Shown here: positions 1-64,000 of the stretch, in pieces | How positions within the stretch are numbered: the first letter of the stretch is position 1 | How the letters are laid out: every line of letters starts with the position of its first letter | From: Chalara sp. BL73 | Lineage: Eukaryota; Ascomycota; Leotiomycetes; Helotiales | Assembly: GCA_918026815.1 (NCBI GenBank) | Contig: CAKJVC010000091.1 | Location: forward strand, 1-64,000 | Reading direction: 5' to 3' | DNA length: 64,000 nt | Notes under the pieces: model-generated | Told to the model about the DNA's origin: nothing | Databases searched by the model: none | What the model saw: only the letters and a program-made list of their open reading frames with translations | Position numbers and translations under genes: made by a program

Positions 1-1049
1 CTAAAAAACTTAAAAAGTCAAAAACAAAAAAAAGATTTTAAAAACAAAGTTGTATAGTTTAAATAACTTCGAAAAAAGCTAAAAACTAGCCGAAAAACTA
101 AAGCGAAACGCCGCCGATATATCGGTAAAACGCTTTCGAACAAAACAAAGTTTAAAAAAAAGCGCTAGCTATTTTTTAGTAACCGGTATTAAAACTTAAA
201 ATCTATTTAATTTTAAAAAACTTTATTAAAAATGCAGTTTTTGTATTAATTGCAAAACGCTGTTTTAAAGCAAACGAAAATTACTATTTTTTAATAATAC
301 GCGAAAATAAACTATTGTATTTTCGCTTTCGATGTAATAACAAAACGGAAATAAAACGGTTATAAGTCGAAAATAAAATCGGCAATACTATATAAAAAAG
401 TTTATAGTTTTTTTATAATTGCTTTACGAATAAAAACAATCGAAAACTAAACGCGGCTAGCAAGCTAAAAAACGCTAAGCAGCAAAAACCAGTTAGTAAA
501 AACTTTTGCAATATATTTAAAAACGCTCGAAAAAAGCTAGAAATCGTAAATAATACGTACTGTTAACGTACGCTATTCGAAAAACTTAAAATAACTTAAA
601 AACAAGTATATTGCGCTATAAAAATTTCTTTAAAGCCGGAAAGCGCTAATATTTTTGGCCCGAAAAAAAAAAGCAAAAAATTATTAGCAATTTTAGTAGC
701 TTAAATAAAAAGCTACAAAAACCTGCGGAAAAGCGCCGATGCTTTTACGTTTACAGCTGAATTAAAACGCCGGTTTAACGTTTTGCAGCAAAAATACTTA
801 AAAAACACAAAAAGCATTTTAAGTAAACGAATCGTATTTTTATCGGTACTAGCACAAAAATAAACGTAGCATTATTCGATATTATCGGTACAATAAAAAA
901 GTTATTTATTTTTAAATACTTTAATATAAAATGCTACAATTAAAAAAAGTTATATTTTTACTAATTGCTTAAAACTTAAACAAAAACGAAAAAGTTTGTT
1001 TTAATATTTTTTTACTAAAAAACAAGCAAAACGCAAAAAACGAATAGTT

Positions 1050-4000
1050 ATTTCGGTACAAGTATTTAATGCCGAAAAAACGAAAAATACAAGCGTTTAT
1101 CGACAGCAATACAAAGCAAAACTATGTAAAACAGTTTTTAGCTATATAGCATAATTAAAAATCGAAAAACGCTTAATTCCAACTAGTTACAGTAAAAAAA
1201 AAGTTGTTATTTACGGAATTAACAATATCGAGCTAGCAATTACTGATTTCGAAAACACTACAAAACTTTACCGATACGACTTTGTAGCGTACGACTTTAA
1301 TATACTAAACGTTTTTTTATATTAAAGTACTTTTAGCTAAAACAAATCGATTTAGTTATACGTTTTTTACAAAAGCTAACAATACTTTTTAAAATGTTTT
1401 AAATTAAAGTATTTAATATTAAAACTTTTGCAAAACTAGCAAAACTAAATAATTTATTGTTTAGTTTTACAGCGAATAAAAAAAGCTTAATATTGCTTTT
1501 TTTACAAATTATACTAATATATTTAACAACGTTTTCGCAAGCATTTTACTAAAGCATTATTCGATAAAATACCGAATTAATTTCAAGCCGGAAACAGTAC
1601 TACTATAAAACTTTGTTTACTTGTTTTAAAAAAATTATTAACAATAAAAAATATTTCGAATTTTTTTATTAAAAAGTAAATCCGCCGATTTACTAGTTTT
1701 GCAAAAGCGCTGATTTTATTCGTATTTAAAAAAACGGTTTTTTAAACTATGCGTAAACTACAAAAATTAAATAAAGTTACGATTAAAAATAAAACGCTGT
1801 TATTTTTAATTAGTAAAATACTAAATAAGCTTCGTTGCTTAAAACGATTTATAAAAATAAATTTTTAATACTACAGAATACGCATTAAAAAACGACAACA
1901 AAAACGGCGTTTTGTACTCGATACAGCTATTTCGAGTATTTAGTTTTTTTTTAAATTTTCGAACGTTTTAACTATGTTTTTGCTTATATCAACTAAGCGC
2001 TAGTCGGCTTTGTCGATGTGATTTGCGTAATTTACTTTAATAATATACTTATTTTTTTAAAGAAAATCGAAAACTATACGAAAGCAGTTTATAAAGTTTT
2101 CGAAAAGCTATAAAAGTATAAGCTATACGCAAACTTTTTAAGTGCTGTTTTAATACAAATACTATTAAGTTTCTAGGTTTTATTGTAAAGCTAAAAGCAT
2201 AAAATAGATTTTTTCGCGTAAAAACCGTAAAAGAATAGTTTGTGTTTACGTGCTATAAAAATATTTAAGTGTTTTAAAGTTTATTAATTTTTATAAACGA
2301 TTTATTAAAAATACGTTCGTATTTATATACTGCTAATAAACTTTTAAAAAAATAAAAAGCTTACAGTTTTTTCCGAGTAAAGCTCGAAGCGCTAGCGAGC
2401 TTTAAAGTTTTGAAATCGAAATTCGAAAAACACTTTTGTTTAAACATTTTAATTCGCAACGTAGAATTAAAGTAAAAACAAATAGCTTTAAATAAGCTAT
2501 AGCCGGGATTTTTTGCAGCTGTTCAAAAAAAAAAGCTAAATAGTACTTTATCGCTTTTACTTAAAAAACTTACTTTGTTAAGTTTCGATATAATACTTAC
2601 AATATAAAGTTAATAATTATAGTTTATGCTTTTCGACAATAAAAACAATACTTTCGAAGCAATGTTAATACCGTTACAGTTCGTATCGATTACAACAATT
2701 TAAAATATTTTATAAAAAAAAGCTTACAAACTGTTAAACGAAATAAGCCGAAAACTTAAACGAGTTTAATTTTGTAATTAAGTTTAAACTAAGCAAAACT
2801 AATTTTGCAAACGGACTTTACAAAAGCCGGACTATAAAAAGTTAACGCCGAATCGAAAGCGAAGCGAAAAAAAGCAAAAACGTTTTTTTGACTTTGTATA
2901 ACAAACTGCGTGTAGCAAAATTGTTTTATGCTTTAAAAACTATTTAAAAAGTGTACTTTAAATAATACGAGTTGCGCTTGTGTAAAGTCGCGTTTATTCT
3001 GAGAAATAAACGTTTTCGAACCGGTAAAATGCCGAAGCTAAAACAAATATAACAAAGTTATAAGCTAAAAAGTATTGTAGCGTAATCCGAAAAGTTAAAT
3101 TTAAGCTTATTGTTAGTATAGCTAGTTGTAAACAGCGCGTGCTACGAAAAGTAGCGATTATATTGTTATCGACTGAAACAGTATATAATAAAGTAACGAA
3201 GCCGATTTAAAACGTTTTAACGAAACTGCAAAACTAATTTTTTTAGTTCGAAAATTACTGAAAAACTACAAAGCGAAGCTAAACCGAAGCGAAAAAGCTA
3301 TAAAGCATAAGTTAAAAATAGCTTATTCCGTTATAAAAAGCTGTATATGTTTTTAACGAAAAGTTAATACGCGCAGAAATAATTCACGTGCATTATAATA
3401 AAAGCTTCTATTTTAGCGTGCGTAAAACGCACGAGCTAATAAGCCGAAAGTACTATTAGTTTAGTTTAAAAATAATATTAAAAATATGTTAAAACGTGCA
3501 CGAAATACTAAAAAGCAAACCGAAAAAGCATTGAATTTACAGCGAGTTAGTTTCGATTTTTATTTTTTGAAACTATAAAAAAAATAACTATAGATTTTAT
3601 TACAAATTTACTGCTCAGCAAAAAGCACAACTAAATATATAACTTTGTATTAGTTATAGTTAACAAATATACTAAACTAGCACGCTATATAGCTGTACAG
3701 AAAAGTATTTAAGCTTATAAGCTTGCGAAACTGTTTATAAACTACATTTATAAAAATTTCGGATTTTTAAAAAAATTACTAATAAAAAGTTTGTTTTACA
3801 AACAAATTCTAAAAACTTTATGTATTACTTTAAGATTCGCCGCCGACTTTTTACTGCTTTTACTCGCAAACAAACGGCTAAACGAAACAACAAAATTAAA
3901 CTTTAGAATTTTATTTAAAAACGTATTGCAATTATAAGCAAAATAACTAAATTTCGAAATTAGTTTTAGCGGAATTTATATACAACAATTTTGTTTATAC

Positions 4001-4640
4001 AAACACCGGTAATACTTTGTTTAAACTACTTTACAGCTTCGATTTTAAGCTAGATTTAAACGTCGGAAACGACGTTTTAAAAAAAAGCCGGCAGTTAAAA
4101 AAATCAAGCTTTTAGTAAAACAAAAAAGCTTTCGAGTATTTCCGAAAAGCTTACAAAAGCACAAAAGTACTACAACGCAAAATACAAGCTAACTTGTTTT
4201 CGCGTAAAAAAAGTAATGCTAGCTTTAAAAATATTCGACAATTTAAGCTTAGCCGCAAGCTTGCAGACAAATATTTAAAACTATTCAAAATTTTAAAAAT
4301 TATAAAAATCACGAACAAGTTTACAAACTAGAACTACTGCTATTTTACAAGATTTACAATATGTTTTATGTATTTTTATTAAAGCCGTAGTATAAACGTA
4401 AAAAGCCGTCGAAAAACCGGCGCCGATTTTAGTACAAAAAAAAAAGTACAAAGTAAAAGCTATTTAAGCTTACCGAACTAAAAAAAATAAAGTATTTAGT
4501 ACGCTAAAAAGTATTCTTTGCGGAAAACTTATAAAAGCTTGCGAAGAACTTTTAAAGCGCCGACGAAATAGTGCAAAAGTATTACTAAAAACTACGTTCG
4601 AAATAGCAAAAAATCGAAAAACAAAAAAGCAAAATAGTCA
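1050..4640 (+). pseudogene. G copy 1 pol: protease-RT-RNase H-integrase-chromodomain remnant
   Basis: Many stops and frameshifts, but the family motifs are clear. The protease active site reads AFIDSNTKQNY at 1093-1125 (DSGA has become DSNT). RT: NYKNLNKVTIKN from about 1750, then TRYSYFEYLV and YFNNILIF near 1915-2060 (the YxDD box has lost both Asp to Asn by G-to-A change). RNase H: IDYNNLKYFI-like and FNFVIKF-like segments at 2640-2800. Integrase: zinc-finger HVHY near 3385, first catalytic Asp in ITIDFITN at about 3584-3613, KIRRRL near 3832. The C-terminal LSRKLADKYL segment is at about 4250, and a chromodomain with YLVR and ADEIVQKYY ends at about 4585. Cannot make protein. A possible gag CCHC knuckle near 929-966 is too damaged to call. 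Confidence 0.85.
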
Positions 4641-5743
4641 ATTTTTATACTCGAAAGCAAATAGCAAAAGCTCGGAGGCGAAACGATAAGTGCTCGAAAG
4701 CGAAGCTAAACGTCTAAAAACTACTCGCCGCCAGCAGCCGCTACTTTTTTTACTACTTTTTTTTCCGACTTTTCTTTTTTTTCTTTTTTTATTATTTTTT
4801 CCTTTTTTTTTTCGGAAACAAACTTATTTTTATTTTTATTTTTGTTATTTTTATTTTCGTTTTGTTTTTGTTGATGCCGGTTTAGCTAAATTAAATCGGC
4901 TACAAGTCGAAAAAGTTCGATTACTTACTGTTACTTGTTGCAATTTAACTCCAAAAGAAAATTGGTTTTTGGCTTTTGTAAAAAGCCAAAAACCGCTTTT
5001 ATTTTTTAAAATAAGCTTGTTAACAAAACAAAACTTTCGAACGATTTTTAATTTCCGAAAAACCCGGGCGATAGTTTTACGGAAGCGTTTTTTGCAGTTG
5101 TTAAAACCGGAACGTTTTTAAAGCAAACGAAACTAGCGTGCGAAGCGCGACTACAGCGACGAAAAACAGCCGGCAGCTAGCCGGAGTTAAATCGAAAGTA
5201 TTAAAACTACAAAATACTTACAAAAAACATTTAGCTTTAAAGCCGCGGCAGCGAAAGATTTATCATTTTTTATCGAAAAAGCAGCAGACTTCGAGTTTAA
5301 AGCTCGCAATTTTCGCGCAGCAAAAGCAAACGAAAGTAGCCGAAGCCGAAACGGAAGCGAAACGCAAAACAAATATAGTAGTAGTAGTAGTAGTAATAGT
5401 AGTAATAGTGTTAGTAATAATGTTGTAAAAAAAAACGCAGCTAAACAGAAAAAGCGCTTATTTATAGGCTGAAATTCGACTATTACTTATTTTTATTTAT
5501 AATTAAAAAATTATTATTGCTGTTACTTATTTATTTTAAAAGTATTGTTAATTGTTTTTATTGTACTCAGTTTCCGCTTTTATTGTACTTAAATTGTTGT
5601 TTGCTACGAGCTTTTTTCGGTTTACTTTCGATTGCTTTACAAGCTAGCTACAATACTAAGCTATTATACTCGCGTTTAAAGCTTAATACTAGTATAAACG
5701 TCGGAACAACGTTTTAAAAAAGGAGCAATATTAGGCGCCAGAA
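4640..5743 (+). other. 3' tail of element G: polypyrimidine tract, GTA microsatellite, polypurine tract
   Basis: Between the chromodomain and the 3' LTR lies 1.1 kb without recognisable domains. It contains a T/C-rich tract (4744-4862), a GC-richer stretch around 5130-5360 that is much less mutated than the pol region, a (GTA)n microsatellite (5377-5422) and a purine run AAAAAAGGAG at about 5716-5725. That run lies just before the LTR and may be the plus-strand primer. Open frames of 143 and 96 codons here are biased in composition (poly-Phe/Leu, poly-Val) and the first is not conserved in frame in the second copy, so I do not call them genes. Confidence 0.55.
5377..5422. repeat. (GTA)n microsatellite in the G tail
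   Basis: Runs of GTA broken by AAT units. The same array, slightly longer, is at 18329-18375 in the second copy. Confidence 0.85.
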
Positions 5744-5928
5744 TGTCACGTGCTAAAAGGCACTAAAAGGGCTCGGTAAAAGCACTGAAGCTTGGCATGT
5801 ATAAACACGTAGAAAGTCGCCAGGAGTTCGGAGGGTATAAATAGACTCGGGACGTAGTAAAGAAAGTAAAGATTAGTTTTGTATCAATTGCAGTTGACTT
5901 GTGCCACCCTACTCCAGCACTTTACACA
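5744..5928 (+). repeat. 3' LTR of G copy 1 (185 bp)
   Basis: Begins TGTCACGTGC and ends CTTTACACA, the usual TG...CA limits. It contains a good TATA box, TATAAATA, at 5836-5843. It is far less mutated than the pol region upstream. The second copy is at 18700-18888 with only small differences. The orientation (tail and purine run on its left) makes it the 3' LTR of a + strand element. Confidence 0.88.
5836..5843 (+). promoter_or_regulatory. TATA box in the G LTR
   Basis: TATAAATA in a GC-richer context inside the LTR, where a U3 promoter is expected. The equivalent box in copy 2 is at 18792-18799. Confidence 0.6.
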
Positions 5929-5933
5929 AATAC

Positions 5934-7634
5934 TGTTAGTATTTATAAACAATTTTCTAAATATTTTATATTTTTATTTAATAATTCAATTGCTTTATTT
6001 TTAAATGCTTTTAATTTAAATATAAATATAACCGATTTAATAAGCTTATATAAATTTAAAAATTATAAAACATATTAGCTGTCGAAAACTATCAAGTTTT
6101 TTGATTTAAAAAATTAGTTAGTTTTTTAATTATAAAAAAATTTTGTGTTGCAAAAAAATAAAAATACTTTACTTAATTGCGGAATATTATAATTTTTATT
6201 CTTTAAGCTAAAATTTGCTTTTTAATAATCGACGATTTTTTAGTTATATTTAAGTCCGATAATAATTTTTCGGACTTTTTTAAATTAAAATTTCTATTAA
6301 GTTAATTATATTTTTTTAAATTTGTTGTTAATAAAACTTACTAGAAAAATCTTTTTCGATATTTTTATTGTTTTCTATATTATAAACTTTTGTAAATCGG
6401 TAAAAAATTTTAATAATAACTTTTAAAATATTTTGTACAACAAAATTTAATATATAAGCGACACAATATATATCGCCTTGAAATTTAATAGCTTTTTATT
6501 GTAATGTTGTTTAAAAGCTAACAACAAAATATTGTTCGAAAAAGCGTTATTTCGAGTAATATTAATTTATATATTAATAAAAAGTAAAAATTAAAAACAA
6601 AAAAAAAAACTTTGTAATATTATACTCAATATTATATTTTTTAAAACTTGTAATAAAATATTATTTAAATATACATTAAATTTTTTTTTTAATTCTCGAA
6701 TAGCTAAATAATAAGATTTTAATTCAAAGTTTTTATTAATAAAATATTTAAAATTGTTAGTAAATTTTTAATAATAATAATATTAATACAAATACGTACA
6801 AAGTAATTCCGAGATAAAAATCTTAATTAATAGTTGTTTAAAAATCTAAAGTTATTAAAAACTACCGTTACTGTTTATTTGTTCGTTTAATTCTGTTTTA
6901 ATAAGATTTTGTTTTAGTAAAACAAAGAATTTAAATCGTTTTTAAAACTTTATAATACAGCAGCGGTATATTACTATAATATATTAATAATAGCTTTTTT
7001 TAAAAAAAAAAATGAAAACTTACAAAATAATTAATTTAATAATTTTTAAAAGAATTACTTGTAATAGCTCGAAAAAATATATTATTTGTTATAGCAAAAT
7101 TTAAAAGTAAATTTTTGAATTGTACTACATTAAATTCGGGAGATTTTAGTTTTTTAAAGCTCGATTTTTATTAAAATAGTCGGATATAGTCGAAGTTTGA
7201 CTATTTTCTTTAATATCGAAATCTATAGAATTTTATTATTTTTTTTAAAAAGTTTTAGCTTACCGGACTCAGAGTCGTTTATTATAGCTTTTATATTAAA
7301 AGATTTATGAGAGCTATTATAATGTGCAATATAATTGCTTGTTGAATGATTTATTTTTTGATTTTCCTAAATTTTACTATTATATAATTAGTAAATAATT
7401 AGTTTTTATAAATAGTTCTACTTACTTGCATTTTTTTGTAAACACTTAACAGTAATAGTTCGAGGTATATTAATATTTTTTGTGGCGGATTTAAAATTTT
7501 TGAAATAAATTTTTTTAAAAATAATAGGTTAAGTATTTATATCAATTTCAAAATCCAAAGAATTTTGTAAACGTATAATACGATTCGATTGAGTTTGTTG
7601 AGACATTTTGTAATAAAAATATAAAAGCGTAATA
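5934..7634 (-). pseudogene. hAT transposase remnant, copy a (minus)
   Basis: On the minus strand a start codon at 7604-7606 opens MSQQTQSNRIIRLQN, followed by a short intron (7377-7425). A second exon carries STSN...H...H, like the end of a BED zinc finger, then a region resembling the hAT core. The strongest mark is CVAYILNFVVQNIL at 6424-6465, the conserved Cys/His helix motif of hAT transposases. Further upstream on the minus strand is NNAFSNN, the damaged form of the catalytic Asp motif. The copy is cut by element E on its 5' side (7639) and by element G on its 3' side (5928). Same family as copies b (18889-20630 plus 31178-31589) and c (36834 onward). Confidence 0.8.
7377..7425 (-). other. 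Spliceosomal intron of the hAT gene, copy a (49 bp)
   Basis: Minus strand: donor GTAAGTAG, branch-like CTAAT, acceptor ATAG. The same intron lies at 20365-20413 in copy b and, with a different interior, at 43065-43116 in copy c. Position and borders agree in all three. Confidence 0.65.
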
Positions 7635-7638
7635 ATAT

Positions 7639-7942
7639 TGTGGCGAGGAACATGCTAAAAGCAAGAACAGCAACAGGATTTAGCACAAAACTCATAGGCG
7701 TGATAGCGGTGGCTGCAGCATATAAGGAGAGCACCGGCGAGCTTAAGCTTTATATAATAAATAAACGTTAATAGCTTATAGTAGTGTAAAATATAGAAAA
7801 ATAGAAAAGTGTGTTGTATAATAATAGTGCGCTTTTTACCGGAAACGCAGATTATATACAATTTATGCTTATTAAGTCATATAACTGACTATTTATAAGT
7901 ATTACGTGACAAAGTATAAAATAAAAAATCGTTTTTACTATA
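7639..7942 (-). repeat. 3' LTR of E copy 1
   Basis: Left end TGTGGCGAGGAACATGC is intact. The right, inner end has been mutated to ACTATA from ACCACA, as the less mutated LTR at 30869-31177 shows. The damage is concentrated on the inner side. Confidence 0.85.
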
Positions 7943-16446: not shown

Positions 16447-16447
16447 T

Positions 16448-17560: not shown

Positions 17561-17692
17561 AAAGCAAATAGCAAAAGCTCGGAGGCGAAACGATAAGTGC
17601 TCGAAAGCGAAGCTAAACGTCTAAAAAACTACTCGCCGCTAAAGCAGCCGCTACTACTTTTTTTACTACTTTTTTTTTTTCCGACTTTTTTC

Positions 17693-17723
<31 letters not shown>

Positions 17724-20630: not shown

Positions 20631-20938
20631 TGTGGCGAGGAACATGCTAAAAGCAAGAACAGCAACAGGATTTAGCACAAAACTCATAGGCGTGATAGCG
20701 GTGGCTGCAGCATACTAAGGAGAGCACCGGCGAGCTTAAGCTTTATATAATAAATAAACGTTAATAGCTTATAGTAGTGTAAAATATAGAAAAATAGAAA
20801 AGTGTGTTGTATAATAATAGTGCGCTTTTTTACCGGAAACGCAGATTATATACAATTTATGCTTATTAAGTCATATAACTGACTATTTATAAGTATTACG
20901 TGACAAAGTATAAAATAAAAAAAATCGTTTTTACTATA
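20631..20938 (-). repeat. 3' LTR of E copy 2 (308 bp)
   Basis: The outer (left) third keeps GC-rich text such as GCGGTGGCTGCAGC. The inner right end is degraded to ACTATA. Next to it on the inner side is an A-rich run on the minus strand (about 20939-20965) that could be a mutated polypurine tract. Confidence 0.87.
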
Positions 20939-30868: not shown

Positions 30869-31177
30869 TATAGCAAAAAATATACTAAAAGCAAAAACAG
30901 CAACAAGATTTAGCACAAAACTTATAAGCGTAATAACAATAGTTGCAGTATACTAAAAAAAGCATTAGCGAACTTAAGTTTTATATAATAAATAAATATT
31001 AATAACTTATAGTAGTGTAAAATATAAAAAAGTAGAAAAATGTATTGTATAATAATAGTGCGCCTTTTTACCGGAAGCGCAGGTTATATACAACTTATGC
31101 TTATTAGGTCACATAACTGACCACTTATGAGTATTACGTGACAAAGTGTAAAAGGAAAGAAAATCGTCCCCACCACA
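30869..31177 (-). repeat. 5' LTR of E copy 2 (309 bp)
   Basis: Aligns with 20631-20938 along its length. The inner left end is heavily mutated (TATAGCAAAAAATATAC against TGTGGCGAGGAACATGC). The outer right end is intact (CGTCCCCACCACA). Confidence 0.87.
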
Positions 31178-36162: not shown

Positions 36163-36166
36163 TTAT

Positions 36167-36960: not shown

Positions 36961-37343
36961 CTAAAAACAGAAGGCGGTTAATCTAATTAAAAAAGCGATT
37001 AACTTTTTGCCGGCAAAAAAGTTCAGAATCTTTTAGTTAATTCTAAAATAGTTATAAATCAATTAATTATAAATCAACGATTTATAATAAACAATTAAAA
37101 ATCAAAACTCGATTAAAAATTTAATTTTAAAAAAGTTTTTAGACTATTTTATTATTTTATATAAAAGTTAATTGCAACTACTGAATAGTTTTTTTGTTAC
37201 TTAACTTTAAATACAATTACTTTACAACTGTTTTACAACTGCTTTACAATTGCTTTTAAAATGTCGAAACAGCAAACTTAAGCTAATCGTATTATTCGAT
37301 TACAAAACAATATTGATTTTGAACTTAATTTAAATAATTAAGC

Positions 37344-37545
37344 TGTTGAGAATTGGTGGTGTAGCCTACCCGTAAAGCATGGGCCATATTTTATGTAATA
37401 GCTTAGTTATTAGTGAAAGGGCCAAACTCCTTTTACTGAGCAACTTTCAAATTGCTTTACAATTAAGTCAATTTATTCTTTTTGAACTACTGCACTTAAG
37501 CAGACTTTGCGTACAGCACAAGCTTTTATTAATACTTTTTTAATA
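37344..37545 (+). repeat. 5' LTR of F (202 bp)
   Basis: The outer left half is intact (GTGTAGCCTACCCGTAAAGC). The inner right end is mutated (CTTTTATTAATACTTTTTT against CTTCCATTAATACCCTTTT in the other LTR). Confidence 0.92.
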
Positions 37546-37546
37546 A

Positions 37547-42740: not shown

Positions 42741-42752
42741 GCTAAATAAAAG

Positions 42753-42954
42753 TGTTAAAAATTAGTAGTGTAGCTTACTTGTAAAGCATAAGCTATACTT
42801 TATGTAATAGTTTAGTTATTAGTGAAAAGGCCAAACCCTTTTTACTGAGCAACCTTTAAATTGCTCTACAATTAAGTCAATTTATTCTTCTTGAACCACT
42901 GCACTTGGGCAGACTTTGCGTACAGCACAAGCTTCCATTAATACCCTTTTAATA
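42753..42954 (+). repeat. 3' LTR of F (202 bp)
   Basis: The inner left end is mutated (TGTTAAAAATTAGTAG) and the outer right end is intact (CACTTGGGCAGACTTTGCG). Mirror image of the pattern in the 5' LTR. Confidence 0.92.
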
Positions 42955-44181: not shown

Positions 44182-44279
44182 AAATATATTAATATTTAAA
44201 CTATATAATTTTTTTTTAAAACTATTCAAACTACTCATAAGTAGTCAAAATTTACTACTCAACTCAACTCAAAGCTTTG

Positions 44280-44471
44280 TGTCACGCTCCTCAATATCGC
44301 ACCAGACGCCCATTGGTTCGCTTACCAGCTCGCCTATAGTGGTCACGTGGTCACGGTCTTGATATCAGGGATGCCACAGCAACAGCTACACTTTTCCTCC
44401 TTAGTTTAGTATTTTCGTATTAAAGCACTTATTATACGCCTTAACAAGCTCATAAAATCGTAATCGTGACA
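44280..44471 (+). repeat. 5' LTR of A (192 bp)
   Basis: TGTCACGCTCC...CGTGACA. Outer left part intact (CACCAGACGCCCATTGG), inner right part mutated (CATAAAATCGTAATCG). Confidence 0.93.
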
Positions 44472-44473
44472 TT

Positions 44474-44483: not shown

Positions 44484-45007
44484 TAACTAACTTTTATTTT
44501 TGCGAAAGAACTAAAACTACTTTTTTTTAAGCGTGCAAAGCTTACGCTTAGCGTATTGTTTTAGTACAACTCGAAAAGCTTTTACTGCTACCGATTTACT
44601 AATTATTAATTACTAATACTGTTTACTTGCGATTTACTAAATATAGCACGTTTTTCAAATAACGAAACTTTAGCGTTTCGAGTTAACGATGACTTTTTTA
44701 ACAACAATTTACTTAACAATAACTTTTTTAAAAAAAAATTTATAATGTTCGACTAGTTAAATACAGCTTTAAAATTAATTCGATTTTTAAATTGCAAAAC
44801 TTTTAAAAATATAACAAATTTAAATGTAAAAAACTTGTTTGCAACCGCAAAGCAAGTTAAACATACAATAAAAAATTAAAAAGTAAAAATTGTAAAATTA
44901 AAAAAACAAATAACAATTTTAATTGTTACTATAGCTAACAATAAAACGGTTATTGTATACTTAAAACGCTTTAAAACTTTGTTAGTTGCAGCTGAAATTG
45001 CTACTAA

Positions 45008-45191
45008 TGTCACGATCACGATCCTATGGCCTGTAGAGGCGCTGAATAGGTGCTTCAATTACGAGAATACTAAACTAAGGAGGAAAGGTGTAGCTGTGGG
45101 TGTGGCATCCCTTATAAGTAAAACCATGATCACGTGACCCACATTGGCGAACTGGTAAGCGAACCAATGAGCATTATTAAGAAGCGTGACA
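45008..45191 (-). repeat. 3' LTR of B (184 bp)
   Basis: TGTCACGATCACG at the left, GCGTGACA at the right. Outer left part keeps CTGTAGAGGCGCTGAATAGG. The inner right part has changes such as AAGAAG for GAGGAG. Confidence 0.93.
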
Positions 45192-45199
45192 ATACCCTT

Positions 45200-48100
45200 T
45201 TCTCCAAATAAGCTCGCTTTTAAGCTTGAAACTCGTAACTTGATATTTTTTTTTTACGGCTTGTTACGGCTATACTTTTTTTTAATAACGCTTTACTTTA
45301 CTCGTAACTGATCTGCAAATTAGCGTGGCTTATTGTTATTTTTTTTCGGTTCTGGATATTTATTACGTTCAGCACATTCGAGCTAATACGCAAAGTTTTT
45401 TAGTAAGCTAGATTTGTTAAGATTGTTGTTGTAAAAGCTTTTAAGTACTAATAAGCTATTTGCTAAAACAGCCGTAAAGTACTATTCAGAGTTGTTATTT
45501 TATTTTTTTTATTTAATGCGGTATTTCAGCGTTTTATTAACACGACGTACAGTTAATACTTTTTGAACTTCGTACTTTTTAGTGTTATTTAATATAATAA
45601 GCAGTAAATCAAGGTTTTTTTAGCTAAGTAGTAAGTTGTTAGCGGCTTTTCGAAGTTTTTTAGCATAAAATACAGAGTATACGCGCATAAAATCCGGTAG
45701 CTTTAACTTGTACGAGTAGTTTATTTGTTTTATAATTTCGAACGAGCTTTTTATTTAATTTGCAAGTTTGCGGCTTGGCCGATGATTTTTTTAATGCTTT
45801 GTAGTAATTTATACGAAATCGCTTACTCCGAAATTAAGCTTTCGTCGATGCTTGTTAGTTTGTTTAGCGTATCGTTTTTGCAAACGAACTATATTACTAC
45901 GAGCCGATTTTCAAAAATTATAAATACAGGTCATTAATGCTTTTGCTTTTTTTTTATTAAGCTTTTTTTTAAGCGTAAGTTTTTTTTTTAGTTTTGCTTT
46001 TACAAACGTTTTTTAATCGAATAACGTACGCGTTTTATAACTACGTTTTGTAAAAAAAAAAAATTGCTTTGTAGTTTTATACTACAACGAAGCTTGCTAA
46101 AAGTCAATAATAGCTACTTATCGATCCTAATTATTTTAATAGTGGTTTATATAAAAGCGTAAGCGCTAATTAAAGTACTAATTTACGATTTTAGTTTAGC
46201 CGTTTGTTTACGAGTAATTTGCCGTTAAAAATTGTAATTTAATTTGTAGCTTAGTACAAAACTCGTTTTAGAAATCAAATATAAACTGCAGTTTTTAATT
46301 CGACGTAATAAAATTAAAAATTTCGGTATAGTATATAACATATAATAAAAACAACAGTACTAGTTTTTTACCTGTAATTGTATCGCGAACAGAAATAGTA
46401 ATCGGTTTTTTGCTTAGTCGATTTACAAATATTGCTACTATATTAAACTCGCTTTTGCTTTTAAAGCATTTTTTAAAGTTAACTGTAATATACTGCTATA
46501 GCCGATTAAGTATTAGCAGCTAGTATAGCAAACTAAGCTTTTTATTTCGAGAAACGTGCGAACGTCGGCAAATATAGCAATTGTCGCAATAGCGAGCAAT
46601 ATTACTTGCTTGGCTTAGCTAGTAGTATCGGCTGCGAATAAACTTATTTAGTTTTATACGTTTTAAATGTTTCGTTAATAGCTGATCGTAAGCTTTTTGT
46701 ATTACAGTTGTTCGTAAAAACATGTTTATAGTTAGTATTACGTTAAGCATATACAGTTTTTTATGCTGTAGCAATAAGCTATTTTAAAGCATTTACGTAT
46801 TTTCTAATTCAGCTCGAGCTTTTGTATGTAGATTTTTAATGTTAGTAACAGTTTTATTAACTAACAGCAATTTGTCGGTAAATTGTAAACTGTTGTACTT
46901 TTCTGGAAGCACTTTATTGCTTTCGATCGGTGCAAGTTTTAGTTTAAGCTTAAAATTTTTGACTATTTCCGAGTTTAGTTTAGCTTTCGGAATTATTATT
47001 TGCGTGCAGTGTTTAGCAATTGCTTGCTTTTAAGCTTTTACGTTTTTTGATCGACGGCTAAAAGCGTCAGTTCGCTAATTTGCTTTTTTTTCGCAATATA
47101 TAAACTTGAAATTGTATTGTAACAATAGTTTTGTTTATCGAGCTTAACGCGCTAATAGCTTTTTTGTTGTTATAAAACATTTTAAAATTCGGTAATTAGA
47201 ATAAATTAAAAATAAAGTTTTTGTTTGTAATTTTTGCAGTTCGAGCTGCTATTAATTTAACGCTCGTATAATAACTAGCATTTTTTTGTTATAAATGTCG
47301 TAATTCAGCTTAGCAGCTTGTATTGTTTTCGTGAAAAACGCTATAAAGTGCTAAAGTTTTAAATTAAAGTTTTGTTGTAATAAAACACTAGCTGCTACTT
47401 TATTCGACGTATTAGTTTTTAGTATAATTTGTAATTTTGGCTTATAATAGCGTAATATCGAAAAATTAATTAAAACATGTTTTAATGCTTCGAATGCTTT
47501 TTTACAATTAGTACTTTATAAATACGGTATATTTTTGACTATTAAGCAATATAACGGCTTTGCAATACGCTCGTAATTTTTAATAAACTGTTTATAAAAA
47601 TTGTAAAACTTTAAAAACGATTGCACGCTTTTTACAGCAGTAAAAAGTTGTTAATTTTTAATTACTTCGATTTTTTAAAAGTTTGTTGTAACGTTTTTAG
47701 TTAAAATAATAAACTTTAAATATTTAGTACTGCTAACGCTAAATTCTGATTTTTTAATATTAACTTGTAAACTAGCTTTACGTAACTGTTTTAGTACTTG
47801 TTTTATATATTGCTTATACTCGCGAAAATTTAACGAGTAAATTAAAATATTATTTAAATATATTGTGCAAAATACGTCGAAATAGTCGAACAAAATATTA
47901 TTTATATAATACTAATATATAACAAGCTTATTTGTTAGTTTTTTAAACAAAACTTTGTATTTGTAAGTTTTGTAACGAGTTCGAAACGTTGTTAGTTTTT
48001 TTGAATTAAAATTTATACGAATTTGGTAAAATGTTTGCTTAATATTTAATTTAGTAAAAATTTTAATTTTTGAAATTCGAGCTAACGTTTTTTTAATTAG

Positions 48101-50690
48101 TAGTAATAAGTATCGATTTTTTTTTGTAAAATTGTTTAGCTTACAAAAATCAATACAAAACCGTAAGTTTTCGTTAAGTTTTTGTACAAATAATACAAAA
48201 GCAGCGAAAAGTGTTTAACTAGTTTTTATAAAACTTTTGTTTAAATTTTCGATTAAAAACCGTTTAATTTTTTTTAATTTCTGTGTAAACTGTTAATGTA
48301 ATAAATTATAACTTAAGCTTTTTTTGCTATTTGAATTTTTAAGTTTAATTTTGTAATTATACGGCCGATAAAACAGCAACTTATTAAAAACTATTTTCGA
48401 AAAAACGTTAGCGTAGTATCGATATTTTTTCGGCAAAATACGTCGCAATTACTGTATTTTTGTTTTTTCAGTTTGTTGTTTATTAAACTCGAATTTAGCA
48501 ATTTTGCGTTTTTTTAAAATTTCGTCGATTTTGTACAAACTAGTAGCAAAAAGCACGTTTTTTTTTTGCTGTAAACTAATATAAAATTTAACAGCAGAAA
48601 CGCTGCAAATATCGATAGTTAGTTTTTGTTTCGAAAATTGAATAAACTAATATTTACAAGTTGTTACAAATTGTTAGCTTTTTAACTCGCTTTTTATTAC
48701 TTTGTATTGTTTTTGTTAATTTTTTTGCTATAAGCTAATGCTCGACTGCTGTAATAGCTTTTTCGATTTTTAAAAATTTTTGTATAATTAATTTCGCCGA
48801 GTAGCATTTAATTAGTGTATTAAATTAAGTTTTGTAATTAAATTTTTTTGTTTAACTGTAATAATTCGATTTTAAACTTAATTTGCAAATCGATTTTTTA
48901 GCTATATTGATTAATAGTTTTCGCAATTAATAAAGATTTTGCTGTTAGCCGCTTATTTTTTGCTTAGTATTATATTTTTGTTTTTTAGCTTAGTAATAAG
49001 TATCGGCACTTTTTTTTGAAAATATTAATTTATCGTTAAATTAATAACAAGAATGTAAAAAAAAGTAATACTGTTTTTATTATTGTATTTATATATAGTA
49101 CTAAATGTTAAAAAAGCATGTAAACTAGTATTTAAATACTTGTAAACTAAATTAGCAAGATTTGTATTAATAAACAATAAATTGTTTACTTTTGTATTAA
49201 TAAGTGTTGTAGTTTAAATACTAATTCTATTTTGATTAATTACGCAAAAAAAAATAAAGTTTTGTTTTTTAAACAATTGACTTAAATTAATGTTACTAAT
49301 ATTAACGTCGCTTATTTTTAAAAAAAAGTTTTGTTTTAAAAATCGGCTTTTTTCGATTTTTTAATTTATTGCTTCGACACTTTTTTAATTGTTGTTACTG
49401 CTAATTTTAAAAATTGAAAATAATTTTTCGAAATATAACTAAACGTTTTGCAATAAAAACACACTTTATTTATATATTCTTGTCGGCGAGCTGCGTTAAC
49501 AAACGAAAGTACTAGTCGAAAAAGTTTAATTTTCGAAGTAATAATTGTTTTTACAGCTTTAAATAACTAGCTAAACAATCGAGTATTTACTGCTGTTGCT
49601 AAAACTACAAACAGTACAGCTTTTGCTTTTTAAAAACGATCAATACGTTTTTTAATTTTTTTGAAACTTTAATCGAGCAATAAATATTAATTAGCGAAAG
49701 TTTTGCAAGTATTAAAGCTATTAAGCATAAAAAAAATTGCGGTTTAAAGTTTTATTGTAAGTTTGTTGTATAAATTAAGCTTTTAGTCGTTTTTAAAAAT
49801 TTAAGCAATATTAGCAAAGTGCAAAAACTAAATATAAAATTCGAAAAAAAACTGTAAACTTTTTATTGTAAACTGTCGATAATTGTTGCGAGTGTTTTGA
49901 ACTTTATAAAAATCGGTGTAAATATTTAACAAATGCTAAATTATTTTTTAAGCTAAAACGAACTTGTTTGTAGTTTTTGATTTGTATTAAGCTCGTAAAT
50001 GCTTTTAAGTATTTTTATTAATACAGCTATACAAATAACTTATTTTAGCTCGTTTTATAACAAAATAGTCGGCATTAACTTCAAATTTGTTTTTAATTTG
50101 AATTTTCTAGTTTTCGAAACTAGTACTATTTATTAAAAAGTTAGGATTAAAGATTTTTTTTAATAAAACTAGTTTAGCAGCAATTTTAGCTGCAGCTAAC
50201 AAAGCTTTAAAGCGTTCCAAATGTACAATAACCGCTTTATTGTTAGCTATAGTAGCAGTTAAAATTGTTGCTTGTTTTTTCAATTTCACAATTCTTGCTT
50301 TTCAATTTTTTATTGTGTGCTTAGCTTGTTTTGCGGTTGCGAGCAAGCTTTTTACACTTAAATCTGTTATGTTTTTAAGAATTTTGCAATTCAGGAATCG
50401 AGTCAATTCTAAAACTGTATTTAGCTGGCTAAACGCTATAAAATTTTTTTTAAGAAAGTTATCGTTAAGTAAGTTGTCGTTAAAAAAATTATTGTTAGCT
50501 CGAAACGCTGAAACTTTGTTATTTAAAAAGCGTGCTATTTTCAGTAAATCGCGAGTAGGCGGTATTAGTAATTAATAATCAGTAAATCGGTAGCAATAAA
50601 AGCTTTTCGAGTTGTGCTAAAGCAATACGCTAAGCGTAGGCTTTGCACGCTCGAAAAAAAAGTAGTTTTGGTTTTTTCGCAAAAATAAAA
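45200..50690 (-). pseudogene. B gag-pol remnant (minus)
   Basis: Read from right to left. Gag begins below 50690; the open 60-codon stretch 50107-50289 (TATIANNKAVIVHLERFKAL) is real gag sequence matching A. The gag continues with a region like KISYLYSCINKN (about 50000). The zinc knuckle CFYCKTFSYISKNY is at 49420-49461. RT: open stretch 47675-47893 with YLNNILIYS, VLKQLRKASLQVNIKK and STKYLKFII. RNase H and integrase follow at about 47550-45800 and a chromodomain at about 45440-45600 (KKYEVQKVLTVRRVNKTLKY). Plus-strand frames at 45725, 46839 and 50240 are shadows. Non-functional: YxDD has become YLNN and stops are frequent. Confidence 0.87.
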
Positions 50691-50698
50691 GTTGACTG

Positions 50699-50708
50699 AG
50701 TTTAGTAT
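50699..50708 (-). promoter_or_regulatory. Candidate self-priming site of B
   Basis: ATACTAAACT on the minus strand, two bases after the 5' LTR, complementary to AGTTTAGTAT in the LTR (minus strand, 50770-50779). Same arrangement as A. Confidence 0.5.
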
Positions 50709-50710
50709 AA

Positions 50711-50894
50711 TGTCACGATCACGATCCTATGGCCTGTAAAGGCGCTGAATAAGTGCTTTAATTACGAGAATACTAAACTAAGGAGGAAAAGTGTAGCTGT
50801 GGGTGTGGCATCCCTCATAAGTAAAACCATGATCACGTGACCCACATTGGCGAACTGGTAAGCGAACCAATAAGCATTATTGAGGAGCGTGACA
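50711..50894 (-). repeat. 5' LTR of B (184 bp)
   Basis: Pairs with 45008-45191. Inner left part mutated (GTAAAGGCGCTGAATAAG), outer right part keeps GAGGAGCG. Confidence 0.93.
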
Positions 50895-53800
50895 ACTAAA
50901 CTAGTTTTATTAAAAAAAAAATTTAATTTTAACTTTTTAATAAATAGTACTAATTTTAAAAACTGAAAAATTTAAATTAAAAACAAATTTAAAGTTAATG
51001 CCGACTATTTTGCTACAAAACGAGCTAAAATAAATTATTTGTATAACTGTACTAATAAAAATGCTTAAAAGTATTTATAAACTTAATACAAATTAAAAAC
51101 TATAAACAAATTCGTTTTAGTTTAAAAAATAATTTAGTATTTGTTAAATATTTATACCGATTTTTATAAAGTTTAAAACGTTCGTAACAATTATCGACAG
51201 TTTACAATAAAAAGTTTACAGTTTTTTTTCGAATTTTATACTTAGTTTTTATATTTTGCTAGTATTGTTTAAATTTTTAAAAACAACTAAAAATTTAATT
51301 TGTACAACAAACTTTAAACCGCAATTATTTTTATATTTAATAACTTCGATATTTACAAAGTTTTTGCTAATTAATATTTATTGCTCGATTAAAGTTTCAA
51401 AAAAATTAAAAAATATACTAATCGTTTTTTAAAAAAAAAATTGCACTATTTGTAATTTTAGTAGTAACAGTAAACACTCGATTATTTAGTTAGTTATTTA
51501 AAGCTGTAAAAACAACTGTTACTTTAAAAATTAAACTTTTTCGACTAGTATTTTCGTTTGTTAACGCGGCTCGCCGATAAAAATATATAAATAAAGTATG
51601 TTTTTATTGCAAAACGCTTAATTATATTTCGAAAAATTGTTTTTAACTGTTAAAGTCAACAGTTACAATAATTAAAAAAGTGTTAAAACAATAAACTAAA
51701 AAATCGAAAAAACTCGATTTTTAAAATAAAACTTTTTTTTTAAAAATAAGCAACGTTAATATTAGTAACGTTAATTTAAATTAATTATTTAAAAAACAAA
51801 ACTTTATTTTTTTTTTGCGTAATTAGTTAAAATAAAATTTGTATTTAAACTATAACATTTATTAATACAAAAACAAACAGTTTATTATTTATTAATACAA
51901 ATTTTGCTAATTTAGTTTACAAGTAATTAAATACTAGTTTATATGCTTTTTCGACACTTAGTATTATACGTAAATACAATAGTAAAAACAGTACTACTTT
52001 TTTTTATATTTTTGTTATTGATTTAACAATAAATTAACATTTTCAAAAAAAAGTGCCGATATTCGTTACTAAACTAAAAAAAAAAAAATAAACGGCTAAC
52101 AATAAAATTTTTATTAATTGCGAAAATTATCGACTAATATAGCTAAAAAATCGATTTGTAAATTAAGTTTAAAATTGAATTATTATAGTTAAACAAAAAA
52201 ATTTAATTATAAAGTTTAATTTAGTATATTAGCTAAATACTACTCGGCGAAATTAGTTATATAAAAACTTTTAAAAATCAAAAAAGCTATTATAGTAGTC
52301 GAGCATTAGTTTATAGTAAAAAAATTAACAAAAGCAATACAAAGTAATAAAAAGCAAATTAAAAAACTAACGTTTTAAAACGACTTGTAAATATTAGTTT
52401 ATGCAATTTTCGAAGTAAAAACTAATTATCGATATTTGCAACGTTTTTACTGTTGAATTTTATACTAGTTTACAGCAGAAAAAAAACGTGCTTTTTGTTA
52501 CTAGCTTATACGAAATCGACAAAATTTTAAAAAAACGCAAAATTGCTAAACTCGAGTTTAACGAACAATAAACTAAAAAAACAAAAATACAATAATTACA
52601 ACGTATTTTACAAAAAAAAATTTAGTATTATACTAACGTTTTTTCGAAAATAGCTTTTAATAAACTATTGTTTTATCGGTTGTATAATTATAAAATTAAA
52701 TTTAAAAATTTAAATAACAAAAAAAGTTTAAATTATAATTTGCTACGTTAACAGTTTACGCAAAAGCTAAAAAAAAATTAAACGATTTTTAATCGAGAAT
52801 TTAAACAAAAAATTTATTGCTGCGAATTAAATACTTTTTGCTGTTTTTATACTATTTGTGCAAAAGTTTAATAAAAACTTACGGTTTTGTATCGATTTTT
52901 GTAAACTAAACAGTTTTACAAAAAAAAACCGCTTTTTATTACTATTAATCGAAAAAACGCTAGCTCGGATTTTAAAAGCTAAAATTTTTATTAAATTAAA
53001 TATTAAATAAACGTTTTACAGAATTCGTATAAACTTTAATTTAAAAAAGCTAACAACGTTTTAAACGCAATACAAAGTTTATAAGTACAAAGTTTTGTTC
53101 GAAAAACTAATTAATAAATTTGCTACGTATTAGCATTATATAAATAATATTTTGTTCGACTATTTCGACGTATTTTATACAGTGTATTTAAATAATATTT
53201 TAATTTATTTTTTAAATTTTTACAAATACAAACAGCACGTAAAGCAAGTATTAAAACGGCTGTATAAAGCCGGTTTACAAATTAATATTAAAAAATTAAA
53301 ATTTAACGTTAACAGTACTAAGTATTTAAAGTTTATTATTTTAATTAAAAATGTTACAATAAACTTTTAAAAAATCGAAATAATTAAAAATTAGCAATTT
53401 TTTACTGTTGTAAAAAGCGTGTAATCGTTTTTAAAGTTTTGTAATTTTTATCGGCAGTTTATTAAAAATTACGAGCGTATAGTAAAACTGTTATATCGTT
53501 TAACAGTTAAAAATACTTCGTATTTATAAACTATTAAATGCAAAAAAGCGTTTAAAACTTTAAAGTATATTTTAGTTAATTTTTCGATATTACGCTATTG
53601 CAAGCTTAAATTACAAATTATATTAAAAACTAACACGTTGAATAAAGTAGCAATTAGCGTTTTTTTACAATAAAACTTTAATTTAAAAATTTAGTATTTT
53701 ATAGCGTTTTTTACGAAAACAATATAAACTGCTAAATTGAATTATAATATTTATAACAAAAAAATGTTAGCGATTATACGAACGTTAAATTAATAACAGT

Positions 53801-54029
53801 TTAAATTGCAAAAGCTATAAACAGAAATTTTATTTTTAATTTATTCGGACTATCGAGCATTAAAGTGTTTTATAACAACTAAAAAACTATTAGTACGTTA
53901 AGTTCGATAAGCAAAACTATTATTACAGTATAATTTCAAGCTTATATACTGCGAAAAAAAAACGAATTAGCGAATTAACGTTTTTAGCTATCGATTAAAA
54001 AACGTAAAAGTTTAAAAACAAGCAATTAC

Positions 54030-54482
54030 TGTAACGTACAAAATAGCCCTGGGCCTAAGTAGCTGGGCTTGGGGCTCGTTGGTTAGTATAGTATATATAA
54101 AATAAGCTAGACACTACTTTTCACGTAGAAGTGAAACGTTACAAGTATAACAAAAACTATATTACTAAACTATAATAAAAGTTGAGCACGAAGCTTTTAA
54201 ACTATAAAACTACGACTATTTATATATTATATTTAAACTGAAGTTTTCTGGAGTTTTTAAAGTTTATATAAACTTTTAAAACTTTTTCAGACTTTATTAC
54301 GTAACGTAGTTGTAGTTTTCGGAGTTTAAAAAACCGTTCGCTTTTTTATTTACTTAAAGTTTTAAAATACTAGCTAATTTTAAAATTTACATTTTTAGAA
54401 TTTTTATTAGTCTCGAAACGCTAAAGCGTTTTAAAGTTTTTTTTTTAAAACTTTAGCAAGTTTTAAAATTCGGTTCGTAACA
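54030..54482 (-). repeat. 3' LTR of C (453 bp)
   Basis: Outer left part intact (AGCCCTGGGCCTAAGTAGC), inner right part strongly mutated (TTTTAAAATTCGG for TCCCAGGATTCGG). Confidence 0.93.
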
Positions 54483-54499
54483 CTATTTTTTTTTTGTTT

Positions 54500-60190: not shown

Positions 60191-60194
60191 AAAA

Positions 60195-60647
60195 TATAAT
60201 ATACGAAATAGTTTTAAACTTAAATAGCTAAATTTAGAACTCGTTAATTAGTATAATATATATAAAATAAACTAAACACTACTTTTCACGTAAAAGTAAA
60301 ACGTTACAAATATAACAAAAACTATATTGCTAAACTATAATAAAAGTTAAATACGAAACTTTTAAATTATAAAACTACAACTATTTATATATTATACTTA
60401 AACTAAAGTTTTTTAAAATTTTTAAAGTTTATATAAACTTTTAAAACTTTTCCAAATTTTATTACGTAACGTAGTTGTAGTTTTCGAAGTTTAAAAAGCC
60501 GTTTGCTTTTTTATTTACTTAAAGTCTTAAAACACTAGCTGATTTTAAGACTTACATTTTTAGGATCCTTATTAGTCCCGGGACGCCAAAGCGTCCTGAG
60601 GTTTTTCTTCTGGGACTTTAGCGGGTCCCAGGATTCGGTTCGTGACA
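60195..60647 (-). repeat. 5' LTR of C (453 bp)
   Basis: Inner left end TATAATATAC corresponds to TGTAACGTAC of the other LTR. Outer right part is intact (CCCGGGACGCCAAAGCGTCC, an inverted-repeat-like stretch, and GCGGGTCCCAGG). Confidence 0.93.
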
Positions 60648-62445: not shown

Positions 62446-62637
62446 TGTCACGCTTTTTAATATCGCACCAGACGCTTATTGGTTCGCTTACCAGCTCGCT
62501 TATGGTGGTCACGTGGTCATGGTCTTGATATCAGGGATGCTACAGCAACAGCTACACTTTTTCTCCTTAGTTTAGTATTTTCGTATTGAAGCACTTATTA
62601 TACGCCCCAACAGGCTCATAGGATCGTGATCGTGACA
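62446..62637 (+). repeat. 3' LTR of A (192 bp)
   Basis: Inner left end mutated (TGTCACGCTTTTTAATATCG), outer right end intact (CGCCCCAACAGGCTCATAGG). Confidence 0.93.
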
Positions 62638-62642
62638 CTTTG

Positions 62643-62720
62643 TACTACTCAAACTTAAATTTACTACTTAATTACTACTTAATTACTACTTAAGTAGTTG
62701 AGTATTTTTTTGTTACACTG
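62643..62720. repeat. Right subterminal repeats and terminus of D1
   Basis: Repeated ACTACTTAATT/ACTACTCAA units followed by TTGTTACACTG, the inverted terminus of D1. Pairs with 43813-43960. Confidence 0.7.
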
Positions 62721-64000
62721 TTATTTAGCTATTCGAAAACTAAAACAGAAACATTCCGGTAATTATTTAAATGAAGTTTTTTTTAAAGTTTTAAAAAAAT
62801 ATAATATTAAATATAATATTACAAAGTTAGTTTTTTAGTAAAATCTTTTAGAATTTACATTATTAACTGTATTTACAGTATAACTCGAAATAACGCTTTT
62901 TCGAACAATACTTTATTACTAGCGTTTAAAAAGCATTATAATTTATAAGCAATAAAATTTCAAAACGATATTTACTGCATTGTACACGTTTTAAATTTAG
63001 TTGCGCAAAATATTTTAAAAACTATTATTGAAAACGACTATAACAATATACAAAACGTATATAATACTAAAAATAATATAAACATTAAAAAAAATATTTT
63101 TAGCAAGTTTTATTTTATTTTATATTAAAAATAAATAACTAATAAAAAATAAAACTATTTGTTTAAAAAAAAGTTCGAAAAATAATAATCGGTTTAAAAT
63201 ATAGTCAAAAAATCGACGCTTATTTAAAAATTAAATTAAAACTTAAAAAATTGAAAATTACAATTTTCTGTAATTAAGTAAATATTTTTTTTAAAACAAA
63301 TTGTTTTTTTGGAATTTATTAACTAATTAATATAAATCAATTAACTCGCTAGTCGTTAACTGCTAATATGCTTAAAAATTTCATATATTTATATAAGCTT
63401 ATTAAATCAGTTGTATCGATTTTTAAATTAAACACTTTTAAAAATAAAGCTATTTTATTATTAAATTCCGAAATGAATTATTTAAAAAAAAGTGTTTACA
63501 AATATTAAATATATTTGTTAAAACTACTACTAAATTACAAGTTGAACATTATTTTACAATTTATTATATTATTCTGGAATTATATATTATATATAATAAG
63601 CTTGAAATATTAAGAATTAAATTTAATAATGTAAGTATTTGTTTTAAATTTAAAAAATTTAAAAAACCGTAAAAAAAAAAAACCTAATTATACAAATAGA
63701 ATTCAGTTTTGAAAAATACTATAAATCGCGGAATAGCAAAATTATTAAAATATTATTCTAAAAAAAATATATTTACAACGATAATAAAGCTATTTATTTA
63801 GCTTTAATATTAAACTTTAAAATTAAAAAAGAAAGTTAAGTAATATAAATTTAATTACCGGTTAAATAAACAATATTAAAACTCGATTAAAATTAAACTT
63901 TAATACGTAAGTTAAACTTAAAATTGAATTTTTTTTAATTTAAATTAACTTTTATAAATATAAAAAAATTATTTGAAAAACAATTTTATAATTGAAAAAA

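Follow-up and report, generated by a model that had tools for sequence, protein, structure and literature searches.

The first 64,000 bases of contig C85 of Chalara sp. BL73 (the window; the genome has 58,659,784 bases in 199 contigs) are AT-rich and dense in repeats whose cytosines have been converted to thymine under an unusual rule. In fresh repeats the target is YpCpH, a cytosine preceded by a pyrimidine (YpC, as opposed to RpC with a 5' purine) and followed by A, C or T (H), and we regard this rule as practically certain. It governs long terminal repeats (LTRs) and a DNA transposon alike and acts on both strands. A preliminary description of the window had proposed a 5'-pyrimidine rule with sparing of CpG. 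That rule extends past the window and into class II elements, with one refinement: the 3' base matters as well, G being nearly excluded in fresh copies. Taken together, the data suggest a variant of repeat-induced point mutation (RIP) whose specificity is YpCpH and whose catalyst is probably a RID-class enzyme.

The rule is clearest in two fresh LTR families. The F1 set of 40 copies contained 38 of the 42 matches outside the window, taken roughly best first, plus the two in the window; columns with a majority below 60% were left out of all family tables. YpC sites accounted for 128 of the 146 C-to-T changes in F1 (p=9e-23 versus RpC; this and the other F1 p-values are indicative only, the copies being related). 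By 5' base, the changes fell at 9/911 sites after A, 64/754 after C, 9/796 after G and 64/946 after T; by 3' base, they fell at 63/1181 before A, 34/798 before C, 4/635 before G and 45/793 before T. CpG was spared even after a pyrimidine (YCG 3/200, all TCG, versus YCH 125/1500; p=1.5e-4). Both strands were hit (67 C>T and 79 G>A), and these 146 changes compare with 76 of all other types. F2 (22 copies; outside the window, 20 of 38 matches, roughly best first) behaved similarly, with rates by 5' base of 0.063 (A), 0.243 (C), 0.066 (G) and 0.251 (T) and by 3' base of 0.122 (A), 0.133 (C), 0.057 (G) and 0.115 (T). Accordingly, the log-likelihood gain from the 5' base exceeded that from the 3' base in the two fresh families (49.7 versus 19.2 and 42.0 versus 2.3), the reverse of what a rule set by the 3' base predicts. 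The older family F3 (outside the window, 20 of 38 long matches, roughly best first, with 14 short reverse matches excluded) gave a near tie (8.2 versus 6.3) and flatter rates (A 0.111, C 0.143, G 0.097, T 0.168 by 5' base). It is a weak witness, because its majority states are themselves mutated; its table has A>G 163 and T>C 97 alongside C>T 224 and G>A 150.

Copies of a class II transposon follow the same rule. We compared three 1.6-kb pieces (L146, L147 and L148) around a DDE_1 domain (PF03184), a trio picked after the rule had been seen in their DDE_1 part and thus not blind. Compared with L146, 32 of 1592 positions are different in L147 and 32 of 1553 in L148, in each case with a C (or G) in L146 where the other copy has a T (or A). 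A 5' pyrimidine preceded 31/32 of the changes in L147 and 30/32 of those in L148, all three exceptions being GCC, and none fell at CpG (0/118 and 0/116) or ApC (0/138 and 0/136). L147 and L148 differ from each other at 57 positions, of which 56 are YpC and zero are ApC or CpG. Wherever all three pieces align and L147 alone has changed, L148 has the same base as L146, which makes the direction of mutation clear. The changes split between strands as 23 C>T/9 G>A and 10/22 in the two copies, without clustering into strand runs in L147 (z 0.48) and with some in L148 (z -2.42). Among the other class II comparisons listed, the L109/L113/L124/L125/L136 group (95-99.6% identity) obeys the rule cleanly, the YpC share is 8/10 in L111/L115, 19/25 in L107/L108 and 1/2 in L138/L144, and more distant pairs are blurred. 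L124 (C7:549230-549742) and L136 (C78:230-652) are 100% identical over 423 bases and represent a hypermutated copy with in-frame TAG stops; identical scores indicate that this copy is apparently also present at C10:49846, C33:105405 and C90:60488. The presence of several apparently identical mutated copies on different contigs indicates that the mutated copy was later duplicated or mobilised. DDE_1 transposases with long open reading frames cluster on contigs C22, C24, C27, C80, C92 and C98, which are perhaps accessory or young chromosomes rich in transposable elements that escape mutation.

Within the window, repeat pairs were taken from a self-comparison, and the context of each C/T or G/A difference was read from the C-bearing copy on both strands. 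Named by their start positions (Table 1), the cleaner pairs have high YpC shares (45005/50708, 8/8; 44280/62446, 16/17; 37336/42745, 24/27; 54032/60197, 51/74). The share is lower in heavily mutated pairs (20641/30879, 20/41; 7649/30879, 17/38; 20604/35866, 26/42; 44312/50174, 44/87) and in the most mutated ones (45008/60646, 111/309; 47015/50896, 97/384; 6703/42955, 37/94), partly because few YpC sites remain. Per-site rates after T and C in heavily mutated pairs are still at least those after A and G, by a narrow margin in 47015/50896 (C 10/23, T 87/167, A 165/391, G 122/268); pair 6703/42955 shows no clear rule. Pooled over 11 pairs, which are not independent and include 6703/42955 (71% identity) but not a 13-kb tandem duplication, the rates were 0.61-0.79 for YCH and 0.42-0.43 for YCG. 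The corresponding RpC rates were 0.41 for ACT, 0.45 for GCT, 0.32 for ACA, 0.37 for GCA, 0.26 for ACG and 0.14 for GCG. Heavy mutation thus brings in RpC sites as a second tier, ACT and GCT being hit more often than ACG and GCG, in line with the earlier wording of a strong preference rather than an absolute rule. That description had also counted 22 YpC sites among some 24 differences in one LTR pair, apparently F3 (54032-54482/60197-60647). A similar proportion holds at the right edge of this pair (columns 320-451, 27/29) and is lost at the left edge (10/20), where all three Cs of a GCCC run have changed, contrary to the claim that the first C of a run stays.

The composition of the window carries the imprint of the rule. 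In GC-rich DNA of contig C82 (169 kb sampled; 18/20 sampled 10-kb pieces are 43-50% GC), dinucleotides are close to expectation (TpC 1.12, CpC 0.98, CpG 0.83), so YpC is not scarce in unmutated DNA. The AT-rich piece at the end of C82 (L027) resembles the window instead (TpC 0.40, CpC 0.50, CpG 2.76). Relative to the GC-rich reference, YCH triplets in the window have dropped to 4-17% (CCA 0.05, CCC 0.04, CCT 0.07, TCC 0.09, TCT 0.11, TCA 0.17) and ACA stands at 110%, as described earlier; ratios for triplets with A/T flanks are inflated because the whole region has turned AT-rich. TCG and CCG, described earlier as often kept, stand at 82% and 35%. ACC and GCC are also low (0.15 each), the adjoining C being itself a YpC target.

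Mutations are unevenly distributed along the LTRs. We split the copies of 11 hand-picked LTR pairs into fifths and counted the differences between LTRs, a measure that misses sites lost from both. Left copies carried 4, 6, 16, 31 and 57 differences from outer to inner end, and right copies 64, 34, 24, 9 and 8 from inner to outer end. These mirror-image gradients do not stem from composition, because both LTRs share one sequence. The preliminary description had noted that one edge of each LTR is nearly unmutated, as the outer fifths of F3 illustrate (1 difference in the left copy and 0 in the right). In seven further same-strand pairs, added as a check, the gradient was repeated in C134, in C55 and in the window pair 20641/30879; pair 86470/106774 of C85 had ten C/T differences without a clear gradient. 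In C127 (275318/288954) the gradient is reversed, as it should be given that 288954 belongs to the following element as its left LTR. A requirement for pairing with another copy would account for the sparing of the outer edges, which border other DNA. The LTR pairs L038/L039 (C100) and L101/L105 (C126), separated by 8 and 10 kb, differ from the rest in having zero C/T differences and are perhaps recent local duplications.

Judged from the sampled composition and one isolated element, mutation is restricted to repeated DNA. That element, a lone F2 copy (L024), lies in otherwise GC-normal DNA, where YpC/RpC is 0.87-1.35 in 8/9 flanking 500-bp blocks. The ratio falls to 0.26-0.42 in the nine inner blocks of the element and to 0.57-0.59 in the two that contain the bulk of its LTRs. 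It is 0.96-1.0 in the last complete 100-bp block at the outer end of each LTR.

Table 1. Features of the window and a candidate gene elsewhere in the genome; bins are differences per fifth of a copy, from outer to inner end for left copies and from inner to outer end for right copies.
Feature	Position	Strand	Observation
AT-rich repeat-dense region	1..64000		TpC 0.46, CpC 0.55 depleted; CpG 2.73, GpC 2.67 over-represented
Repeat copy, heavily mutated	20641..20928	+	left-copy bins 0,0,1,5,7; pairs with 30879-31167
Partner of 20641-20928	30879..31167	+	right-copy bins 8,13,6,0,1
F2 left LTR	37336..37545	+	mutated toward inner (right) end; bins 0,1,3,4,4
F2 right LTR	42745..42954	+	mutated toward inner (left) end; bins 8,4,3,0,0
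Outer-pair LTR, lightly mutated	44280..44471	+	left-copy bins 0,1,0,1,6
Partner of 44280-44471	62446..62637	+	right-copy bins 5,2,2,0,0
F1 LTR	45005..45192	+	44 genome matches at E<=0.001
F1 partner LTR	50708..50895	+	right-copy bins 1,2,1,0,1
Heavily mutated repeat body	47015..50177	+	inverted partner 50896-54030; 86% identical over aligned bases; second-tier contexts visible
Inverted partner of 47015-50177	50896..54030	-	self-comparison
F3 left LTR	54032..54482	+	outer edge nearly unmutated; left-copy bins 1,1,2,6,24
F3 right LTR	60197..60647	+	outer edge nearly unmutated; right-copy bins 22,8,8,2,0
Divergent RID-like methyltransferase (putative)	L005 (C79:12667-22605), 4268-6499		best homologue 33% identical (Cytospora mali)

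GC content ranges from 12 to 32% per 2-kb block of the window. Two zones (8001-16000 and 22001-30000) lie at 12-15%, under the rest of the window, and possibly reflect repeated mutation rounds or centromere-like DNA. The segment 44280-62637 consists of nested and inverted repeats, with inverted partners at 45008-47022/60646-62637, 47015-50177/50896-54030 and 44312-45007/50174-50871. The repeat at 20641-20928 also resembles 7649-7926 and, inverted, 35866-36189. A tandem duplication of ~13 kb (3545-16446/16437-29913) has 233 differences over the 10,711 aligned bases that were compared (97.8% identity), of which only 60 are C/T or G/A, and it seems younger than the hypermutation of the region. 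RNA-family and tRNA scans of the window found nothing.

A six-frame search of the genome with PF00145 gave four matches at three loci, on contigs C79, C82 and C164. The C82 gene combines its match with an SNF2 domain, an architecture from which we take it to be DNMT5-like. We recognised no gene of the DIM-2 type, which represents the second RIP pathway, among the matches at these three loci, as judged without a DIM-2 reference in an assembly that may be incomplete. The C164 product appears to be RID-like: its top four hits are 44-45% identical over 79-89% of the query, and the named hits among 25 are from Sclerotinia, Chlorociboria and Coleophoma. With GT-AG introns placed by eye, splicing gave an 806-residue open frame for C164, which carries PPCQ and EQT motifs and whose start codon is not fixed; the C79 model stays open for 697 amino acids from its first ATG. 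The hits and motif likeness, rather than a comparison with Neurospora RID, suggest that both belong to the RID class (class I). Among 84 positions on which at least 85% of 23 homologues agree, the aligned catalytic part of C164 departs at 9, compared with 0-11 (median 2) in the homologues themselves. Two departures, F to A directly after EQT and F to K seven residues on, affect phenylalanines kept in 23/23 homologues. The C79 paralogue is rare, with 6 homologues at E<=1e-3 among 7,994 candidates scored. Bisporella sp. PMI_857 is not named among the 25 C164 or the 6 C79 hits, though its RPC2-like protein, 98% identical to that of our genome, is in the collection; search length limits or gene models could explain this gap. 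The next hits of the RPC2-like protein were lower, at 87% without a name and 83% in Cudoniella; Bisporella is classed by NCBI in Helotiales, and this one protein puts our genome among the helotialean ascomycetes. Either C164 or C79 could carry a changed specificity, a link that goes no further than correlation.

We propose that multi-copy DNA would be recognised by homology and that cytosines within the homologous stretch would be converted to thymine on either strand. The preferred target is 5'-(C/T)C(A/C/T)-3', with RpC as a second tier under heavy mutation and CpG least used. The most likely catalyst would be the RID-like C164 protein or its divergent C79 paralogue, deaminating cytosine directly or via 5-methylcytosine (5mC), presumably during the sexual cycle. 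The preliminary description had offered a RIP variant with altered context among its alternatives, and this fits best because of the restriction to repeats, the mutation of both strands, the edge gradient and the RID-class genes. We consider homology-directed RIP very likely, ahead of any other mutator aimed at repeats, and think it probable that a RID-class enzyme sets the YpCpH rule. We lean towards the view that homology-directed mutation in fungi has evolved an enzyme whose specificity depends on the 5' rather than the 3' base, be it the C79 paralogue, a partner deaminase or a RID whose active site has changed.

Several observations weigh against this proposal. Half of the F1 copies (20/40) carry at most one C-to-T change, 13 of them none in the counted columns, unlike efficient Neurospora RIP. 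Only ~10% of YCH sites changed in the fresh transposon copies (31/300 and 30/292), again below the efficiency in Neurospora. The 13-kb tandem duplication has gone without hypermutation since its origin, and the 99% identical L138/L144 transposase pair has 5 substitutions of which 3 are transversions. The boundary of L024 is not clean: ~300 bp to the left of the element, outside its LTR, are AT-rich and YpC-poor. Finally, methyltransferases usually read the 3' base, and a 5'-base preference is more typical of deaminases, a -1 pyrimidine preference being seen in the APOBEC3 and DddA types.

The last point favours a rival explanation that we consider unlikely, in which the YpCpH rule comes not from a methyltransferase but from a specialised DNA cytidine deaminase brought to repeats that are paired or silenced. 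Candidates exist, as the genome has 8 PF00383 and 11 OTT_1508_deam matches. However, the seven PF00383 matches that were scanned look ordinary (presumably DCD1-, TAD2-, CDA- and Rib2-like proteins), and the eighth is TAD3-like by eye only. Two of the PF00383 proteins (C89 and C114) match Inv-AAD; these deaminases were rejected as mutators, the C89 protein matching PDB 7drz/7dry, which we take to be an Aspergillus Rib2 riboflavin enzyme. A search of the genome for DddA-like proteins gave no match, and its search controls were equally silent. Relatives of the OTT_1508 proteins are described, in the passages concerned, as A-to-I RNA editors acting in antiviral defence in Neurospora (PMC12754623).

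It is quite improbable that 5mC is placed at YpCpH of repeats and lost by slow spontaneous deamination, in a process resembling methylation induced premeiotically (MIP) that has mutation as a side effect. The genome does have methyltransferase genes, including the DNMT5-like one. DNMT5 is, however, a CpG maintenance enzyme, yet CpG is spared in the transposon copies. Furthermore, the changes are bundled in some copies and missing in others, which ill suits slow deamination, though copy age could contribute.

Ordinary CpA-directed RIP, with the 5' rule as an artefact of base composition, is more improbable still. Standard indices do label the window as RIP (TpA/ApT 1.40, substrate 0.58), with 56/64 1-kb windows passing the two cut-offs, product and substrate, that are quoted in PMC7882544, and CCA heads the list of sites hit in one transposon copy (12/54). 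The label is given for a partly wrong reason, because the substrate index divides by ApC+GpT and a YpC mutator spares ApC. RIPCAL likewise tallies CpN and, according to the part of its description that concerns us, was not designed by its authors for trinucleotide bias (PMC2621366). RpCpA sites, which a CpA rule should hit, are far below YpC(C/T) sites, both in F1 (7/397 versus 69/716; p=8e-8) and in the two transposon copies (0/57 versus 14/202, p=0.045; 0/57 versus 19/196, p=0.009). In the available part of a study of a Zymoseptoria duplication, 240/242 de novo RIP mutations are at CpA (PMC10294615). Thus, we rejected ordinary CpA RIP and do not file the process as canonical RIP, the CpA preference being absent.

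APOBEC-like editing of retrotransposon complementary DNA (cDNA) during reverse transcription would account for the YpC context, which is like that of APOBEC3, and is scarcely credible. Both LTRs of an element are copied from one template during reverse transcription, and editing at this stage would not produce opposite gradients in them. We also rejected it on the grounds that the same rule operates in a DNA transposon and that both strands are mutated in one copy. Ultraviolet (UV) damage or a repair bias deserves next to no credence and was rejected: C-to-T at TpC and CpC is a dipyrimidine signature, but UV does not spare YCG and would explain neither the normal YpC in sampled non-repeat DNA nor the edge gradient.

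The homology-directed process proposed here shares with RIP in Neurospora and Zymoseptoria the C-to-T changes on both strands of repeats, the presence of a RID-class gene and the confinement of mutations to the homologous stretch. A 3' A sets the target in those fungi, whereas a 5' pyrimidine and the absence of a 3' G set it here; Neurospora-type RIP differs further in that many copies are untouched here and no DIM-2-type gene was recognised among the PF00145 matches. RIP of new duplicates in Neurospora is reported, in the relevant section of the source, to depend on RID (PMC11969663). Hypermutation in Microbotryum and other Pucciniomycotina, described in part of one study as targeting TpCpG (PMC5381629) and in part of another as operating without a RID-type gene (PMC4352252), also depends on the 5' T. 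Its target is nonetheless a CpG, which is avoided in Chalara, and it contrasts with the two RID-like genes found here. The Sclerotiniaceae are leotiomycete relatives with RID-class genes. For Monilinia, Botrytis and Sclerotinia, a passage citing Clutterbuck 2011 mentions depletion of GpC and some TpC beside CpA (PMC8959702), a 5'-neighbour effect that recalls ours. As far as these passages go, the pattern given is CpA accompanied by CpG and CpC double mutations, and depletion is stronger for GpC than for TpC. In our sequence, GpC is in excess and it is CpC and TpC that have been lost. The portion of Amselem 2015 at hand reports CpT/CpA signatures in Botrytis, Sclerotinia and Magnaporthe and gives contexts as CpN. 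The TpCpG rule of Microbotryum and the GpC/TpC depletion beside CpA of Sclerotiniaceae are the nearest published rules found in the accessible parts of the open-access literature, where we found no fungal YpCpH equivalent, in line with the preliminary description, which had recognised none. APOBEC3/AID and DddA share the 5' pyrimidine preference. They differ from our case in that no such gene was identified here, DNA transposons are mutated too and a homology edge gradient is present.

A kingdom-wide survey from 2025 concludes, in the part that bears on this question, that a preference for CpA is common to RIP-like defences (PMC12543289), a conclusion to which a YpCpH fungus is a counter-case. 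If our interpretation is true, RIP specificity would be evolvable and such changes would be invisible to CpA-based indices. Other genomes labelled as CpA-RIP may hide different rules. We know of no settled answer as to whether RID itself deaminates cytosine or recruits another enzyme. A natural change of target rule, such as the one proposed for Chalara, would provide a readout for which enzyme makes the mutations.

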